From assembly GCA_026995935.1 (NCBI GenBank), contig JALWNK010000036.1, forward strand, positions 1 through 46,002: a stretch of 46,002 nucleotides of DNA, in the 5' to 3' direction. Position numbers and translations under genes: made by a program. Positions 4,861 to 46,002 of this stretch are shown here, in pieces. The DNA is from Deltaproteobacteria bacterium. Lineage in GTDB: Bacteria; Desulfobacterota; Dissulfuribacteria; Dissulfuribacterales; QOAL01. The notes under the pieces were generated by a model. That model was not told the DNA's origin and did not search any database. It worked only from the letters and a program-made list of their open reading frames with translations. Numbering within the stretch: position 1 is the first letter of the stretch; each line of letters opens with the position of its first letter.

Positions 4861-7397
4861 TATTTCCTCCCACAGCACTTCTTATACTTTTTGCCGCTTC
4901 CGCAAGGACAGGGTTCGTTTCTGCCTATCTTTTTGTTCTTTCTCCTGACAGGCTTTGGCTTTGGTGCCTCTTCGTCCCCGTGGCTCATGCGAAGCTCCTG
5001 CTCCTGTTTGCTGCGCTGCCTTGCCTCGAGCTCTTCCACCTCTTCCGGTCTCATGGGGCGGATCCTGAGCATGAGGCTTACGGTCTCTTCCCTGAAACGG
5101 CGGACCATTTCAAGGAACATCTCGTATCCTTCCTTCTTGTACTCCTGGAGCGGGTCCTTTTGCCCGTATCCCCTGAGCCCTATGCCCTCTCTTAAGTGAT
5201 CCATGTTGAGGAGATGGTCCTTCCAGATGGTATCCAGATTCTGAAGCATTATGAACCTTTCCGCCATGGACATCTCCTCATCCCCGAAGAGTTCCACCTG
5301 GCGGGCATAGGCATCCTTGAGATAGGATTCTATAAGCTCCTTGAGCTCCTCCAATGAGGCAGGAAGGGTATCAATATCTCTTATGCCCTTTTCGACACCG
5401 AATCTCACCCTAAGTGTCTCATCAAGTCCCTTCCAGTCCCACTCTTCTGGTGGAAACTTTTCGTCAAAGTAGCTTTCAGCAAGCCTCTGGCTTATCTCCT
5501 CTATATAGGCGTGGATCTCTTCACGGAGGTTTTCGCCCTTCATTATCTGCTTTCTAAGGCCGTAGACAACCTCCCTCTGCTTGTTCATAACATCGTCATA
5601 CTCAAGGAGGTGCTTTCTTATCTCGAAGTTGTGGGCCTCCACCTTCCTCTGGGCATTTTCAATGGCCTTTGAAAGCATCTGGTGCTCAATGGGCTCCCCT
5701 TCCTGCATGCCCATCTTGTCCATGAGGGAGGCAATCTTATCAGAGCCAAAGATCCGCAGAAGGTCATCTTCCAGGGAGAGGTAGAAACGGGATGAGCCAG
5801 GATCCCCCTGGCGCCCTGAACGGCCCCTAAGCTGGTTGTCAATCCTTCTGGACTCGTGCCTTTCCGTGCCAAGGATGTGAAGGCCACCAAGCTCCCTTAC
5901 ACCGTCTCCAAGCACAATATCTGTTCCACGGCCAGCCATGTTGGTGGCAATGGTCACCCTTCCCTTCTCTCCGGCATGGGCAACTATCTCTGCCTCCCTT
6001 TCGTGGTGCTTTGCATTAAGGACCTCGTGGGGCACTCCCATCTTCTTGAGCATTTCAGAAAGCTTTTCAGAGTTTTCAACGCTCGTTGTTCCCACAAGGA
6101 CCGGACGGCCCTGCCTGTGGAGCTCCTGGATCTCCTTGGCGGCTGCCCTGAACTTTTCCTCAACGGTCCGGAAGACAACATCTGGATGGTCTTCACGGAT
6201 CATCGGCTTGTGGGTTGGAATTACCACCACGTCCAGATTGTAAATCTTCTTGAACTCTGCCGCCTCCGTGTCTGCAGTACCTGTCATACCTGCAAGTTTC
6301 TCATACATGCGGAAAAAATTCTGAAAGGTAATGGAGGCAAGGGTCTGGTTCTCGCTTTCAATCTTTACGCCCTCTTTCGCCTCAAGGGCCTGGTGAAGCC
6401 CGTCGCTGTACCGCCTTCCTGGCATGATCCTGCCGGTAAACTCGTCAACGATAATTACCTGGCCATCTTTTACGATGTAATCCACGTCCTTTTTGAAGAG
6501 TTTATGGGCCTTTAGGGCCTGCTGCACGTGGTGGAGGAGCTCGGAGTTTCTGGGATCATAGAGATTTTCCACACCAAGAAGCCTTTCGCACTGAGCGACC
6601 CCTTCCTCTGTCAGGGAAACGGCCTTTGCCTTCTCGTCTATTGTGTAATGCTCCTCCTTGAGAAAGGGGATTATCTGGTTCACCTTGTGGTAAAGCTCTG
6701 TGGATTCATTTGACGGGCCCGAGATGATGAGCGGAGTCCTAGCCTCATCAATGAGTATGCTGTCCACCTCGTCAACAATGGCATAGTAGAAATCCCTCTG
6801 GACCATGTCCTCCAGGGAATACTTCATGTTGTCCCGAAGGTAGTCAAAACCAAACTCGTTGTTTGTACCATAAGTTACATCGGCGTTGTAGGCGGCCTTT
6901 CTCTCCTCATCGTCAAGGCCGTGGACTATAACCCCCACGTCAAGGCCCAGGAAATTATATATCTTTCCCATCCACTCTGAGTCCCTCTTTGCCAGGTAGT
7001 CGTTCACGGTTACAACATGGACACCTCGGCCAAGAAGGGCATTTAAGTAAACGGGGAGAGTGGCCACCAGGGTCTTTCCTTCACCTGTCTTCATCTCAGC
7101 TATCTTTCCCTGGTGAAGCACCACGCCGCCAATCAACTGCACATCGAAATGACGCATGCCAAGGACCCTTTTTGAGGTCTCCCTCACAACTGCAAAGGCC
7201 TCGGGAAGGAGCTCGTCAAGGCTTGCCCCCCTTTCTATCTTCTCCTTGAAATACGGAGTCTTGGCCTTAAGCTCGTCATCTGTAAGCTTCTCTATTTCAG
7301 GCTCAAGGGCATTAATCTGCTGGACAATGGGCCTTATCTTCTTTATTTCCCTGTCGTGTTTCGTTCCAAAGACCTTTGTAAGTACCTTACCAATCAT
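4860..7397 (-). CDS. secA: Preprotein translocase ATPase SecA
   Basis: Motor ATPase that drives unfolded preproteins through SecYEG. The 845-aa protein has Walker A MKTGEGKT at 102-109, a DEVD Walker B motif, the helicase core, the preprotein cross-linking and scaffold regions, and a C-terminal zinc tail ([13 protein letters not shown]). The zinc tail is the SecB- and ribosome-binding type. The start ATG at 7397 has AGAGGA 5 nt upstream. It lies between an ArgA-like acetyltransferase gene (17 nt upstream) and argJ (1-nt overlap), so it is co-transcribed with arginine genes. Confidence 0.98.
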
Positions 7398-25981: not shown

Positions 25982-26056
25982 TGGGGCGTCGTCAAGCGGT
26001 AAGACACGGGTCTTTGGAACCCGCATTCGCAGGTTCGAATCCTGCCGCCCCAGCCA
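25982..26056 (+). tRNA. tRNA-Gln (anticodon TTG)
   Basis: Full cloverleaf. Acceptor stem TGGGGCG (25982-25988) pairs with CGCCCCA (26046-26052), then discriminator G and an encoded CCA (26054-26056). The anticodon stem CGGGT/ACCCG encloses the loop CTTTGGA, with anticodon TTG at 26014-26016. The T arm contains GGTTCGAATCC. It lies between ispE and prs. Confidence 0.97.
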
Positions 26057-39568: not shown

Positions 39569-42463
39569 TTACTCCTGCTCGGATTTCTGCTTCTCCTCGC
39601 CGCTCTCAATGGAGGTCCCAATATCTGGAGCCACCTCTTCCATCTCAAAGGCCTCTATGACATCTCCAACTTTTATATCGTTGAACCTCTCAAGCCCGAT
39701 ACCGCACTCGTACCCGGCCTGCACTTCCTTGACATCTTCCTTGAAACGCCTGAGCGACTCTATCCTTCCGGTATAAACAACCACGTTGTCCCTGAGCAGC
39801 CTGGCCTGGGCGTTTCTCTTGATTACGCCTTCAAGCACGTAGCAGCCAGCAACTGTTCCAACCTTTGCAATATGGAAAGTCTGGCGAACCTCTGCCCTTC
39901 CAAGGGTCTTTTCCTTGTAAACGGGCTCAAGAAGCCCGGTCATGGCGCTCTTAACCTCTTCAAGGGCATGGTAAATGACGTTGTAGAACCTGATATCAAC
40001 ATGTTCCTTGGCGGCAAGCTGCTTTGCCTGGGGACCCGGTTTCACGTTAAAGCCGATGATTATGGCGTTTGAGGCCGATGCCAAAAGGACATCCGATTCG
40101 GTGATTGCACCAATACCGCCACGGACTATTTCTATCTTTATCTTGTCTGTGCTTAGCTTCCTTAATGCATCGCTAAGGGCCTCCAGGGAGCCCTGAACGT
40201 CTGCCTTAACAAGGACGTTCAGCACCTTGAGATCCTGCTCCTTCATCTTCTCAAACACGGTCTCAAGGCTGATACGGCTGCTCTTTGCAAGCTCCGCCTC
40301 CCTGGCCTTTCTCTGGCGGTACTCTGCAACCTCCCTGGCCTTTTTCTCATTGGGCAGAACCACGAACTGGCTGCCTGCCTCAGGTACCCCTGAAAGGCCC
40401 TGGACCTCAACAGGCTTGGACGGACCAGCCTCTTCCACCTTTCTGCCCTTGTCATCCAGCATGGCCCTGACCTTTCCGTGGTTGAGGCCGCAAACCATGG
40501 CATCACCCACCCTCAACGTTCCTTCCTTTATAAGCAAAGTAGCCACAGGCCCACGCCCCTTGTCCAGTTTGGACTCTATGACGTAACCTGAAGCCGGACG
40601 GTTCGGGTCTGCCTTTAGCTCAAGGACCTCTGCCTGAAGGACCATCATCTCAAGCAGTTCGTCTATTCCTGTTCCCATCTTGGCAGAGACGTTTACAAAT
40701 ATGGTATCTCCGCCCCAGTCCTCGGGCATGAGCCCGAGCTCGGAAAGCTCGGTCTTCACCCTGTCCGGATTCGCTCCGGGCTTGTCTATCTTGTTAACGG
40801 CAACGATGATGGGAACGCCTGCGGCCCTTGCATGATCAATGGCCTCCCTTGTCTGGGCCATCACTCCGTCGTCTGCGGCCACTACTAAGATTACCAGGTC
40901 GGTGACGCTTGCACCGCGGGCACGCATTGACGTGAATGCCTCGTGACCTGGGGTATCAAGAAATACCACCTGGTCACCAGAAGGCAGGTTGACCTCGTAG
41001 GCGCCTATGTGCTGGGTTATTCCACCTGCCTCCTTTGAGGCAACATCACTCTTTCTTATGGCATCTAGAAGGGTGGTCTTTCCATGGTCCACATGGCCCA
41101 TAATGGTCACAACTGGAGGCCTTGGTACCGGCTCTCCACCCTCAACTTTCTTTTGTACCTGCTCTATTATGTCTTCGGCTACACTCTTTCTCTCAACCTC
41201 GTATCCAAATTCAGAGGCCACAAGGGCAGCTGTGTCGTAATCAATGGTCTGATTGGCAGTGGCCATTACGCCAAGTGCCATGAGCTTCATTATCACCTCG
41301 GCCACCTTGACTCCCATCTTCTGGGCAAGCTCGCTGACCTGGATGGTTTCAACCATTGTGATCTTGCGTTTCCCTGCCTTGATGGGCGCAGTGCCTGTTG
41401 CCTTCTGTTCCTTCTGGGCCTTGGCACTCTTTGGCCCCTTCCTGCCAACCCTTGAGATTCCCTCCTCCTCCTTGAGTATCTCCCTTATGGCCTCCTTTTT
41501 GCCCTTTTTCTTCATGGGCTTTCTCTTCTTGGAGGGACCACCAAGATCCATGGCCTTTACCACCCTCTTACCCTTCTTTTTACCCTTGGCGGGCTTTGCA
41601 GGCCTTTCGGCAACGGGTTCACTGGGTGCCACAGCCCTTTGCTGCTTCTTCTTGGGAGGCTCTTTTTTCTCCGGTTTTTTTAGTTCTATTCTTGGCCTTT
41701 CAAGAATCTTTACAAACTGCTTTGGCTCTCTGGGTTTGGCCTCTTTTGTCTCTTTTGTCTTTTTAGACTCTGGTTCCTTTTCAGGCCTGGTTTCCTCACG
41801 CTTCTCCCCTGTTTCTAAAGCAGGCTCAACTGAAGGCGGGGCGCCTTGTTCAAGGGCCTTTTCCTCCTTTGCAACCTTTTCTTCAGGCCCCTTCTCTTCT
41901 TTGGAAACGGCTTCCTTTTCCTTGACAGTTGGCTTCTCTTGGGCATGTTCCAGGGGTTTCTCCCTGGTTTCCGCCTTCTCTAACGGCTTCTCAACCTTTT
42001 CAGGGCCTTCCTCTTCCTTTTTCACTTTGGAAGGCGCAGGACGTACGATTTTCACCTTGCCAGTTGTAACCGGCCTCTCTGGCCCTCTTTTCTCAACAAC
42101 CTTTGCCGCCTCGTCTTCCTTGGAAGTAACTTCCTGTGCCTTCTGCTCCACAGGTGCCTTGGGGGTGACCTCATGCTCTCCTTCAACAGATTCGGCCGGA
42201 GGGGTTTTCTTGATTATTCTTTTTATATGGAGCACCTTGTGCTTTCTGCGAATCACCTTTTTTTTGGGCACTTCTTCTGCTTTTTCGGCCTGTTTACCTG
42301 CCTCCTGGCTCTGAAGTCTTTTCCTTATCTCGCTGACCTCGTAATCTTCCAAGGTGCTCATATAATTTTTTATGGGATAGCCAAGATCCTTGATCCTGGC
42401 CTCCATTTCCTTACTTGAAATGCCAAACTCCTTGGCAAGTTCGTGAACTCTTATCTTTGACAT
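39569..42463 (-). CDS. infB: Translation initiation factor IF-2
   Basis: GTPase that places initiator fMet-tRNA on the 30S subunit. The 964-aa protein has a first IF2_N domain (1-50, [15 protein letters not shown]), a very long Lys/Glu/Pro-rich linker (about 55-365), and a second IF2_N domain (about 375-425, [12 protein letters not shown]). The GTPase core follows, with P-loop [11 protein letters not shown], switch [10 protein letters not shown] and NKID, then the IF2 domains 2-4. The start has a GGGGGTGA SD about 9 nt upstream. It follows ylxR after 89 nt with no visible terminator. Confidence 0.98.
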
Positions 42464-42789: not shown

Positions 42790-44214
42790 TTAACCCTGTG
42801 AGGCCTCTTCCTTCTCTTCGTCCTTGGTATCAGAATCCCCTTTCTCCGCAACCTCTTCCATCTCCTCTTCAGGGGATTCCTCAACCGATTCCCCGGACTC
42901 CTGGCCACTCTCTTCCGTTTCTGGCGTGGTTTCCTCAAGTACGGCTGCTTCCTCTTCAGCCTCTTCGGCTTGCGTTTCTATAAAGGCATACTCCTGCCCA
43001 TACTCCTCCAGGAACTTCTGGGCCGCCTCCACAAAGGGTATTGCATCCTTTCTAAGCTCATCAGGATCTGCATTGGCAAGTTCTCCTATAGAGCGAATTC
43101 CCTTTTTGAACAGATGGTCGGCAACGCTTTCACTCATGCCAAGGTGCTCCAACATGGCCTGGTAATTTGGGTCCTGACTGTTTTTGTATCGCGTTTCACT
43201 CTTGACATCTATCTTCCAACCCATGAGCTTTGCGGCAAGTCTTACATTTTGCCCCTGACGCCCTATGGCAAGGGAAAGCTGATCGTCCGGGACGATGACC
43301 TCAAGGGCCTCATTGGCCTCATCAACAGTTACCTGGGTGACCTCTGCCGGGGCCAGGGCATTATACACATACTTGGCCGGGTCAGGGCTCCAGGGCACTA
43401 TATCAATTTTTTCGCCCCTGAGTTCCTGTACGATGGCCTGCACACGGGAACCCCGCATTCCTACACATGCTCCAACAGGATCAACGTCAATGTCACTGGA
43501 ACTTACGGCAATCTTTGTACGACTGCCAGGCTCCCTGGCAACACCCATGATCTGCACTATGCCATCTGCTATCTCAGGAACCTCTATCTCAAAGAGCTTT
43601 CTTATAAATTCAGGATGGGTGCGGGAAAGGATAATCTGTGTATCCCTTTGGGTCTTCTTTACCTCTACAATGTATGCACGAAGCCTGTCCCCCCTCCTGT
43701 AGCTTTCTGTGGGAATCTGCTCCGAGGGAGGAAGAAGCGCCTCGGTTCCGCCCAGGTTTATAATCACGTTGCCACGCTCAAATCTCTGAACGATACCGTT
43801 AACCACCTCACCTTCCCTGTCCTTGAACTGGTCATAGATGACGTCCATCTCTGCGCTTTTCATCTTCTGGATGATTATCTGCCGGGCAGACTGGGCCTCT
43901 ATCCTGCCAAGCTTATCCATGTCAAGGACCGTACCGATGCTGTCTCCCAGCTCGCTTTCAGGGTCTAGCTTCCTGGCCTCCTCCAGGGATATTTCAGTAA
44001 CAGGGTCTTTGACCTCTGACACCACGGTTCTGAACTGGTACACCTCCAGCTCTCCTGTGTTGTCATTATAGTTGACCTCTATATCCATCTTGGATCCAAA
44101 ACGCTTTTTGACTGCAGAGGAGATGGCCTCCTTTAACGCGGAAATCAAGACATCGCGCTCAAGCCCCTTTTCCCTGCTGACCTGATCTATTATTCTCTTA
44201 AGTCCTATATCCAT
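42790..44214 (-). CDS. nusA: Transcription termination/antitermination factor NusA
   Basis: RNA polymerase-binding pausing and antitermination factor, 474 aa. The order is N-terminal polymerase-binding domain (1-125), S1 (about 132-200), and two KH domains (about 205-345, with ACVGMRGSRVQAI and LAIGRQGQNVRLA). A helix-hairpin-helix segment follows (about 360-405, LGMSESVADHLF), then an acidic Glu-rich tail of about 60 residues. A single HhH-like domain is seen, not the duplicated AR repeats of E. coli. It follows rimP after 17 nt. Confidence 0.97.
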   Translation of the reverse strand: MDIGLKRIIDQVSREKGLERDVLISALKEAISSAVKKRFGSKMDIEVNYNDNTGELEVYQFRTVVSEVKDPVTEISLEEARKLDPESELGDSIGTVLDMDKLGRIEAQSARQIIIQKMKSAEMDVIYDQFKDREGEVVNGIVQRFERGNVIINLGGTEALLPPSEQIPTESYRRGDRLRAYIVEVKKTQRDTQIILSRTHPEFIRKLFEIEVPEIADGIVQIMGVAREPGSRTKIAVSSSDIDVDPVGACVGMRGSRVQAIVQELRGEKIDIVPWSPDPAKYVYNALAPAEVTQVTVDEANEALEVIVPDDQLSLAIGRQGQNVRLAAKLMGWKIDVKSETRYKNSQDPNYQAMLEHLGMSESVADHLFKKGIRSIGELANADPDELRKDAIPFVEAAQKFLEEYGQEYAFIETQAEEAEEEAAVLEETTPETEESGQESGESVEESPEEEMEEVAEKGDSDTKDEEKEEASQG

Positions 44215-44231
44215 TATTCTCCATCCTGTCT

Positions 44232-44705
44232 CTAAAGAATGTCTAATCTTGCCTTTTTTATGAGTCCAAGGGGCAGGAAAAACTCCTGGCCAGGGGCGTC
44301 TATAATGACCTCGTTCTGGTCTGAGACACCCCTTAAAAACCCCTTGAACTTTCTCCTGCCATCCACAGGTTCGATGGTCCTTACAAATACCTTCTGGCCG
44401 GAAAACCTTTCATAATCCTCTGCATTGACCAGGGGCCTGTTTATGCCAGGAGAAGACACCTCCAGATTGTAACTGCCAGGCACAGGATCATGCACGTCAA
44501 GCAGGTCACTGACCACCCTGCTCAACCTGCTGCAGTCATCCAGGGTGACCCCGCCTTCCTTGTCTATTACTAGACGAAGGGTGTTTCCTCTGGGCCCCTT
44601 TACAAACTCCACAAGGACCAACTCAAGTCCATTGTAATCGGTAAGTGGCTCAACCAACTCCCCGACCTTTTGCTCTATTTCCTTTTTCAGTTCCTCGAAC
44701 CTCAT
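44232..44705 (-). CDS. rimP: Ribosome maturation factor RimP
   Basis: Needed for 30S assembly. The 157-aa protein has the RimP signature VSSPGINRPLV and an N-terminal alpha/beta domain (ELVEPL, LVEFVKG, LRLVIDKEGGVTLDDC). It is the first protein gene of the nusA operon. Its ATG lies 23 nt downstream of an intrinsic terminator on the same strand. Confidence 0.96.
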   Translation of the reverse strand: MRFEELKKEIEQKVGELVEPLTDYNGLELVLVEFVKGPRGNTLRLVIDKEGGVTLDDCSRLSRVVSDLLDVHDPVPGSYNLEVSSPGINRPLVNAEDYERFSGQKVFVRTIEPVDGRRKFKGFLRGVSDQNEVIIDAPGQEFFLPLGLIKKARLDIL

Positions 44706-44728
44706 GATCTCACTTATTATTGCACTAT

Positions 44729-44753
44729 AAAAAAAAGTGGGCAGAGCCCACTT
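44729..44753 (-). terminator. Intrinsic terminator / possible attenuator between tRNA-Gly and rimP
   Basis: On the minus strand the 8-bp stem AAGTGGGC/GCCCACTT (44753-44746 with 44742-44735) has a 3-nt loop and is followed by a T-tract (44736-44729). It terminates the tRNA-Gly transcript or attenuates rimP-nusA-infB. A TATAAA element at 44785-44780 could start a second transcript just before it, but no good -35 is seen. Confidence 0.85.
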
Positions 44754-44855
44754 CCTGAAGAGACAAAGATATAAATGATTTTATACCTCCACTCATCGAA
44801 GTAAGCACTGCCATGCCGCTACCACGACACTTAGCAGCCAAACCTCAAAAAGGGA

Positions 44856-44931
44856 TGGAGCGGGCGACGGGCCTCGAACCCGCGACCCCAAGCTTGGGAA
44901 GCTTGTACTCTACCAGCTGAGCTACGCCCGC
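44856..44931 (-). tRNA. tRNA-Gly (anticodon CCC)
   Basis: Full cloverleaf on the minus strand. Acceptor stem GCGGGCG (44931-44925) pairs with CGCCCGC (44866-44860), then discriminator T and an encoded CCA (44858-44856). The anticodon stem CAAGC/GCTTG encloses TTCCCAA; the CCC anticodon is the complement of 44896-44898. The T arm contains GGTTCGAGGCC. Confidence 0.97.
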
Positions 44932-44980
44932 CTCAACTCTGTCTTTGATACTCCGGAAAACCAGATATCAGACGCAAAAT

Positions 44981-45008
44981 AATATAGGACTTGTGTATGA
45001 AATGTCAA
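44981..45008 (-). promoter_or_regulatory. Sigma-70-type promoter of tRNA-Gly
   Basis: On the minus strand a perfect -35 TTGACA (45008-45003), a 16-nt spacer and -10 TATATT (44986-44981), about 50 nt before the mature tRNA 5' end. It may also drive rimP-nusA-infB by readthrough of the terminator that follows the tRNA. No gene is seen elsewhere between rimP and motE. Confidence 0.7.
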
Positions 45009-45056
45009 GAATAGTAGGATACCGATGAATTAAACATGGAAGGAGTCAAAAAACTG

Positions 45057-45629
45057 CTATTGGTCATCATTTTTCCCGTAAAGACGTGCACTTATCCTTG
45101 CAGCCTTCTCTGGCGACATGTTGGCCAGGATCTTGGCAACCTTCTTGCTCTTCATTATGGCAAAAAGTTTCGTGACCGTATCCTCATCCAGCTTATTAAG
45201 GAGCGCTGCGGCTCTCACCGGATCCATGGAGCTGTAAACCCCTGCAAGGTGCTGGAGCCTTGCACCCTGTTCGAACCGCTGCTTTTTGACAGGCCCTTCG
45301 AGCCTGCGCTCAAGGTCTTTTAGCTGCTTTATCTTGTTTTCCAGGTCCTTTTTAAGGAGCTCAAGATCCTTCTCTCTTTTTTCAAGCTCCCTCTCTTTTT
45401 CATTGAGTCTGGCCATCTTGAGGCGAAGAAACCGCATAACTTCCGGGTTGCATGACCTTTCACCACTGCCTAAAGCCGGGGATGAAGGGTTGCTATTCTC
45501 TGTGGCAGCAGTAGCAACATCTTCAAGGGAAGAATTTGGACGGAAATCAAGCACCATGCCGCCAAAAACCAACATCTTGGCAACAAAGGCCACTGCCACA
45601 ACCCTTATCCATACCCTTCCCCAGTTCAT
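45057..45629 (-). CDS. motE: MotE-like flagellar protein (MgtE N-terminal-type domain)
   Basis: Protein of 190 aa with one N-terminal membrane helix (about 8-27), a long charged coiled coil (about 70-115, KERELEKREKDLE), and a C-terminal helical domain of the MgtE intracellular-N type (VYSSMDPVRAAALLNKLDED, NMSPEKAARI). This is the MotE architecture, a chaperone for the flagellar stator MotC in Sinorhizobium and found near fliJ in other bacteria. Its ATG overlaps the fliJ stop by 4 nt (ATGA). The name rests on architecture and neighbour; the exact role here is inferred. Confidence 0.8.
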   Translation of the reverse strand: MNWGRVWIRVVAVAFVAKMLVFGGMVLDFRPNSSLEDVATAATENSNPSSPALGSGERSCNPEVMRFLRLKMARLNEKERELEKREKDLELLKKDLENKIKQLKDLERRLEGPVKKQRFEQGARLQHLAGVYSSMDPVRAAALLNKLDEDTVTKLFAIMKSKKVAKILANMSPEKAARISARLYGKNDDQ

Positions 45630-46002
45630 GTCCTCTGCCCGTTACCTCCGCTGCTCTTCATCTGCCTGGCCCTTCCCAGGGAAACCAGGTCATCAAGCTC
45701 CTTTTGAAGCCTGGCATCCACCTCTTTTAAATACCGCTTAAGATCCCTCTCCTTTAGTCCTGATACAAGTTCAGTGTCTATGTGGCGCTGACGCAGTTGG
45801 CCCCTGGCCTGGGCCACGTCTAGCCTTGCCTGCTTGAGCCTCTTGTCTAGTTCCCTGCATTTTTGCTCCATCTGGGAGATGAGCTGACACCTAAAGTTAA
45901 AATCAGTTGACATGATTCCCTCCTCCATCTTTTCCCTGAGTTTATTCTCCTCTCTTCTAAGGGACTTCATGTTTTCCTCAAGTTCCCCTTCTATTGCCTT
46001 TT
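45626..46002 (-). CDS. fliJ: FliJ-like flagellar export protein (partial, 5' end outside window)
   Basis: Continuously helical, charged coiled-coil protein fitting FliJ, which connects the flagellar ATPase FliI to the export gate. An internal ATG exists at 45970, but the frame stays open to the window edge (KAIEGELEEN precedes it), so the true start lies beyond 46002. At least 124 residues are visible. Coupling to motE by ATGA supports a flagellar operon continuing upstream. Confidence 0.78.
   Translation of the reverse strand, partial: KAIEGELEENMKSLRREENKLREKMEEGIMSTDFNFRCQLISQMEQKCRELDKRLKQARLDVAQARGQLRQRHIDTELVSGLKERDLKRYLKEVDARLQKELDDLVSLGRARQMKSSGGNGQRT

Follow-up and report, generated by a model that had tools for sequence, protein, structure and literature searches.

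The window, by which we mean the whole stretch of 46,002 nucleotides that was analysed, carries on its minus strand a group of genes identified by Pfam matches, in this order, as RimP, NusA, IF2, DUF503, RbfA and a DHH protein. A tRNA gene and a structured leader precede rimP. The promoter in turn has FliJ upstream of it, along with a protein that matches MgtE_N (Pfam). The features on which the analysis rests, with the basis for each assignment in brackets, are as follows.

44979..45008, minus strand: putative promoter of the tRNA-leader(-operon) transcript (TTGACA, 16 or 18 nt, TATATT or TATTAT)
44856..44931, minus strand: tRNA-Gly(CCC) (ARAGORN; Rfam RF00005, 63 bits)
44842..44855, minus strand: block A, UCCCUUUUUGAGGU, the 5' strand of helix P1, the anti-antiterminator (position; comparison of leaders)
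44807..44841, minus strand: variable hairpin P2, between both strands of P1 (predicted fold)
44788..44806, minus strand: block B, GCUUACUUCGAUGAGUGGA, the shared strand, partner of block A in P1 or of block C and the terminator 5' arm in the antiterminator AT (position, swap test, pair counts)
44746..44775, minus strand: block C and terminator 5' arm (ending in GAAGUGGGC), the 3' strand of AT (pair counts, predicted fold)
44729..44756, minus strand: terminator T with U-run, a rimP-leader hairpin of the GGGC..GCCC type (scan; comparison of rows; motif of PMC2965389)
44232..44705, minus strand: rimP (Pfam RimP_N, DUF150_C)
42790..44214, minus strand: nusA (Pfam NusA_N, S1, KH)
39569..42463, minus strand: infB, encoding IF2 (Pfam IF-2, GTP_EFTU)

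Most elements of this layout had been proposed in the original prediction, and they were recovered here. The near-consensus promoter ahead of the tRNA shows 11 of 12 consensus matches at 45008-44979 (TTGACA-16-TATATT, or the 18-nt variant ending in TATTAT, by sequence scan), the tRNA-Gly(CCC) is called by both ARAGORN and Rfam, and the intrinsic terminator that follows has a stem of 11 pairs with a loop of 3 at 44756-44732 and a T-run reaching 44729, from which 23 nt lead to the rimP ATG at 44705. Such a scan by itself proves nothing, because the numbers of matches within 6 kb were no higher than in shuffled sequence (4 promoter-like matches against 3.6, and 9 terminator-like matches against 8.6). 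The same arrangement nevertheless recurs in all 30 whole-genome loci, where a tRNA-Gly(CCC) stands before rimP on the same strand; these are the window's own genome and 29 relatives, the best 30 of the 51 genomes, out of 60, in which RimP was matched. Amongst the 85 leaders having enough sequence, a promoter score of at least 10 was reached upstream of the tRNA in 35, as against 1 of 85 with shuffled upstream DNA, and between the tRNA and rimP in one. In line with the original prediction, the scan of the window showed no clear separate promoter for rimP. Between promoter and tRNA lies a small hairpin, GAUAUCUGG..CCGGAGUAUC (44947-44969, minus strand), whose pairing seems to be kept despite changed letters in one relative (L008). 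The only further tRNA reported by ARAGORN in the window is a tRNA-Gln(TTG) at 25982-26056 on the plus strand.

The comparison of the tRNA before rimP across Desulfobacterota, which the original prediction had proposed, showed that tRNA-Gly(CCC) recurs: it precedes the leader in 77 of the 90 loci that match a covariance model of the leader (described below) at E<1e-4. The 13 loci without it are eight of family f18 and L159, L171, L200, L204 and L207. A contig edge lies close to the gene in L159, L171 and two of the f18 loci, and L200, L204 and L207 are probably chance matches that show a terminator only. All 20 loci chosen because they had no match at E<1e-4 (L212-L231, with weak matches in L212 and L226 at E 0.002 and 0.005) likewise have this tRNA before rimP. 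It was found in 23 of 40 pieces lower in the NusA ranking, drawn from the higher-scoring, listed part of 379 matching genomes, and in one more piece where no rimP was found; one of the 40 (L251) repeats the genome of L159. In a contig scan by NusA it stood before rimP in 36 of 80 loci, none of them past the 40th rank. These sample sets of 30, 90, 20, 40 and 80 loci overlap. In the window's genome, glycine tRNAs with anticodons GCC and UCC are encoded elsewhere, and CCC occurs at rimP only, among the six leader-like or tRNA-like loci of the genome. Other tRNAs are also seen near rimP. One relative (L023, genome G010) has both a tRNA-Pro(GGG) and the tRNA-Gly(CCC) upstream of the gene, and in other lineages a tRNA-Gln(CTG) precedes rimP (L082, L085) or a tRNA-Cys(GCA) lies 0.5-0.7 kb before it (L100, L115). 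The NusA of L100 is 52% identical to the query, and the label of that record, a Klebsiella pneumoniae MAG, is doubtful.

Within the genus (8 genomes), the roughly 100 nt from the tRNA to the terminator are conserved at an identity of 0.86. The figure drops to 0.50 over the 45 nt that precede the tRNA and to 0.28 in the gap from terminator to rimP, and the first 300 nt of the rimP coding sequence reach 0.74. As the leader exceeds both its flanks and the coding sequence, the RNA is evidently under selection as far as the terminator. Three mutually exclusive helices can be drawn in this region. Block A pairs with block B to give P1, block B pairs with block C and the terminator arm to give AT, and the arm GAAGUGGGC pairs with GCCCACUU to give T. 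Block A directly follows the CCA end of the tRNA in the window, as in most leaders read from the order, and outside those leaders up to about 200 nt separate the two. Its positions C2-C4, G12 and G13 are invariant in the 83 leaders with a family label, and the G12.U wobble of P1 is present in 96 of 97 alignment rows. Block B reads GCUUACUUCGAUUAGUGGA, or GAUGAGUGGA in the genus of the window, and block C, which is CUCUGCUAAU in many members, continues into GAAGUGGGC, the 5' arm of the terminator. The distance from block A to the motif ACUUC varies from 15 to 58 nt in 88 distinct leaders, the misaligned L062 being excluded. This element is what the original prediction had overlooked: its tRNA and terminator leader of rimP-nusA-infB is kept as a layout in much of the phylum, and a conserved P1/AT/T element lies within it.

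The pairings were examined in an alignment of 100 matches, reduced to 97 distinct rows for column counts and to 89 leaders after removal of near-duplicates of the blocks; block B of L062 was re-anchored by hand, and L189, probably misaligned, was kept. Cells were paired at 94.2% for P1 (91.6% in shuffles, 58.5% in the best slid register), at 80.8% for AT (76.8% and 55.7%) and at 99.9% for T (96.9% and 62.1%), in an alignment (A3) that had been fitted to seven pairs of P1 and to T, and not to AT. Cells in which both sides had changed numbered 22 for P1 against 5.0 in shuffles, 83 for AT against 52.0 and 35 for T against 10.8, and none of 500 shuffles was as high in any of the three. Two measures that are less sensitive to relatedness gave weaker signals for all three helices. 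Pairs with a change on both sides numbered 5 against 3.1 for P1 (33 of 500 shuffles as high), 9 against 7.9 for AT (114 of 500) and 3 against 1.6 for T (53 of 500), and the corresponding pair types were 13 against 10.7 (47 of 500), 35 against 31.3 (12 of 500) and 8 against 6.8 (66 of 500).

Because these stricter measures were weaker, duplex energies were compared using one leader per family. The test drew on 83 labelled leaders, with L059, L061, L067, L069, L070 and L073 excluded and with the labels of L042 and L063 given by resemblance. In 21 families the cognate P1 duplexes came to -12.5 kcal/mol and the swapped ones to -11.0 kcal/mol, and for AT the values were -20.9 kcal/mol (cognate) and -17.5 kcal/mol (swapped). 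Over 30 draws, no draw had more than 1 of 2000 permutations as good, and with all 89 distinct leaders none of 20000 was. In 44 of 83 leaders, where 3.1 would be expected, all four letters before ACUUC, which lie outside the modelled P1, pair with GGGC; in families with GAGGG they may extend P1 instead. Exclusive helices that are each backed by sequence comparison, as looked for in a three-state attenuator, are thus present, with the stricter measures weak for all three, and we consider the P1/AT/T architecture likely.

When leaders were cut after GGGC, 47 of 89 were predicted to fold as AT, 35 as P1 and 7 as neither, and at full length 79 of 89 showed T with P1, 7 showed T alone and 3 had no T. 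The leader of the window, cut at the same point, folds as AT (0.94 of the ensemble) and at full length as P1 with T. The 35 leaders whose predicted winner is P1 even before the 3' arm of T exists count against a simple switch.

The distribution of the element was followed with a covariance model, R1, built from 23 leaders. At E<=0.001 it matched 39 of the 46 genomes in the order, among them G032 with its match split in two. At E<=0.01 it matched 134 of the phylum's 395 genomes, of which the 90 with E<1e-4 were inspected; in the control phylum, that of L079 (from a record titled Myxococcota), none of 146 genomes matched at E<=0.01. One cultured carrier is Desulfatibacillum alkenivorans DSM 16219 (L051), whose leader matches the model at E 1.3e-15. 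Downstream of the match, rimP lies on the same strand in 88 of the 90, and none of these 90 genomes holds a second match at E<1e-4. By subtraction of eight f18 loci, six f26 loci and L200, L204 and L207, the full element is present in 73 of the 90. Some true members, L217 for one, fall below the score line because of insertions.

Deviating loci of families f26 and f17, as well as L069, also speak against a simple switch. Eight loci of family f26 (L194, L196-L198, L206, L210, L226 and L228) keep blocks A and B, none of the eight has a rimP-type terminator with four T, and those looked at carry a GUGGACC:GGUCCAC hairpin in place of the B-C helix. As they keep the RNA without the terminator, the RNA there would do more than switch T, or something else. 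In ten f17 loci (L163, L175, L176, L185, L187, L188, L190, L193, L195 and L209) 0.4-1.8 kb separate T from rimP; reading frames within the insertion, TauE/SafE-like ones among them, were named by eye, and the tRNA, leader and terminator stay together. Two f17 loci, L172 and L191, are without it. The eight f18 loci (L192, L199, L201, L202, L203, L205, L208 and L211) have a terminator, but neither a tRNA nor blocks A and B in the available sequence, which stops at a contig edge in two of them; a promoter-like stretch leads straight into GGUCUGCUNNAAAAGCGGGC, with block C-like sequence before the terminator. Finally, L069 (from about position 5228) has the element behind what is apparently a decayed tRNA gene, of which only the 5' half matches, and an intact tRNA would therefore not be needed.

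The terminator itself belongs to a known type. The rimP-leader (Naville and Gautheret 2010) has a GGGc..gCCC terminator with a U-run before rimP-nusA-infB, as found here, and the 23 nt to the start codon fit the 4-130 nt between hairpin and gene start given in the part of PMC2965389 that deals with this leader. That account, a 2010 survey in which rimP ranks first among genes with predicted attenuation, presents the general form as a conserved stem and U-run with neither a larger element nor a visible antiterminator, finds an antiterminator only in some Gammaproteobacteria and considers NusA probably the best candidate for a factor. Unlike the general form, the leader described here has conserved antiterminator and anti-antiterminator strands behind a tRNA-Gly(CCC), and with this larger conserved element and its antiterminator pairing it is therefore a variant of the rimP-leader and not the plain form. 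A literature search, for which most subscription journals were outside coverage, returned no description of it.

A close counterpart is the gammaproteobacterial form (RF01770), which likewise has a tRNA followed by a possible antiterminator over the GGGC arm; in E. coli the duplex of AGGGUUCAGUUAU and AGAAUAACUGGGCUUU has an energy of -12.7 kcal/mol. The E. coli locus, whose layout with metY before rimP was also examined by us, had been cited as the precedent in the original prediction, and the relevant sections of PMC6511841 indeed describe metY and two terminators, t1 and t2, before rimP, with feedback by NusA. Here, unlike in E. coli, the tRNA is tRNA-Gly(CCC) and not tRNA-fMet, and P1 and P2 stand where E. 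coli has its second terminator. The logic of the leader may be the same as in the metY type despite the other tRNA. RF01770 exceeded its gathering score of 47 bits in none of 6 genomes, with listed weak matches only on contigs other than that of rimP among the at most 150 candidates scored per genome. Five leaders from the phylum of the window gave it no match with E as high as 0.5, compared with 102 bits for E. coli. Conversely, the score of R1 against the leader of E. coli was borderline at 12.6 bits (E 0.0053 for 1.5 kb), and we do not take it as homology. In B. subtilis, NusA stimulates termination within the leader of its own operon and so regulates itself (Mondal 2016, as related in PMC12288461); attenuation at an intrinsic terminator is common to both, and the portion of PMC12288461 concerned tells of no tRNA or P1/AT switch there.

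An Rfam scan of 44200-46002 returned the tRNA and two chance matches only, with no family for the leader element, and the T-box model gave no match in this interval up to E 5. Scanning further leaders against Rfam likewise yielded nothing beyond the tRNA and chance matches. T-boxes and the expression platforms of riboswitches use a mutually exclusive anti-antiterminator, antiterminator and terminator, the same three-helix logic as proposed here. The loop of P1 varies in both length and sequence, so no small-molecule pocket is evident. Two direct roles for the tRNA were considered and rejected. In the first, UGGA of block B would pair with UCCA at the tRNA end in the manner of a T-box, which is at odds with CGGA in distant members and with the half tRNA of L069. 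In the second, the anticodon CCC would pair with GGG in the terminator, which is at odds with GGGC in leaders that have no tRNA-Gly(CCC). For an upstream open reading frame as sensor, no conserved start codon was seen by eye.

Taken together, the comparisons suggest that the element acts mainly in cis, as a transcription attenuator of the rimP-nusA-infB operon, a reading to which we give a probability of roughly 0.6, set slightly lower because the stricter shuffle measures are weak. RNA polymerase would start upstream of the tRNA, and block B, once transcribed, could pair either back with block A or forward with block C and the terminator 5' arm. In the latter case AT would cover GAAGUGGGC and prevent the terminator; in the former, P1 would hold block B and leave the terminator free to form. 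Stabilising P1 or the terminator should then lower expression of the operon, and freeing block B should raise it. The switch would work co-transcriptionally, with readthrough from the tRNA promoter feeding the operon. Its effector is most likely NusA, in a feedback loop, or another factor of the operon; NusA in particular, favoured by analogy with known systems, is a tentative choice. In a fuller and rather speculative version, a previously undescribed switch, common in this phylum and physically tied to tRNA-Gly(CCC), would set the levels of RimP, NusA and IF2 through a dedicated factor that binds P1, be it NusA, RimP, IF2 or free 30S subunits via the Shine-Dalgarno-like GAGGU of block A, and the near-invariant G12.U would keep P1 weaker than AT, leaving the operon on by default and off by binding.

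The same RNA might instead serve as a processing site, in which blocks A, B and C form a long duplex cut by an endonuclease such as RNase III, freeing the tRNA and setting the decay of the operon mRNA, with the choice of pairing secondary. The parts of PMC5371410 and PMC6511841 that concern this region describe a site for RNase III in E. coli, located between metY and rimP, AT and the B-C helix together reach 18 pairs in L019, and the eight f26 loci without a terminator keep A, B and a B-C hairpin. Cleavage of this kind would predict neither two alternative partners for block B nor the pairing of the letters before ACUUC with GGGC of the terminator arm, and we regard it as unlikely to be the main role. 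A simpler view, that of the original prediction, has a plain tRNA terminator tuned by NusA, the conserved RNA being the trailer of the tRNA. It draws on the NusA feedback of E. coli and B. subtilis (PMC6511841 and PMC12288461, in the passages on those leaders) and on minimal leaders (L245, L250, L263 and L264) that consist of tRNA-Gly(CCC), about 10-17 nt, a terminator and rimP. A mere trailer would not be expected to keep an identity of 0.86 within the genus, and it leaves the better-than-swapped pairing across 21 families unexplained, which makes this view improbable; as a mechanism, the choice between P1 and AT is also more specific than tuning of the terminator by nothing but NusA. Least probable, and by our estimate very much so, is a separate small RNA released from the tRNA transcript and acting in trans, its link to rimP being positional only. 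The ten f17 loci that keep tRNA, leader and terminator at a distance from rimP would suit it, against the position of 88 of the 90 strong matches on the same strand upstream of rimP and the lack of any second match at E<1e-4 in those 90 genomes.

For the attenuator reading, the terminator of the rimP-leader was already known, and what is new is the pair of P1 and AT strands together with their coupling to tRNA-Gly(CCC). As the general leader showed no visible antiterminator, its control had stayed open, going by the treatment of this leader in PMC2965389. The leader described here has strands of both kinds, antiterminator and anti-antiterminator, that are conserved from family to family, and defined mutations in it offer a direct test of whether NusA, RimP or some other factor exerts feedback. 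It is also a further example of an operon encoding transcription and translation factors whose leader incorporates a tRNA gene.
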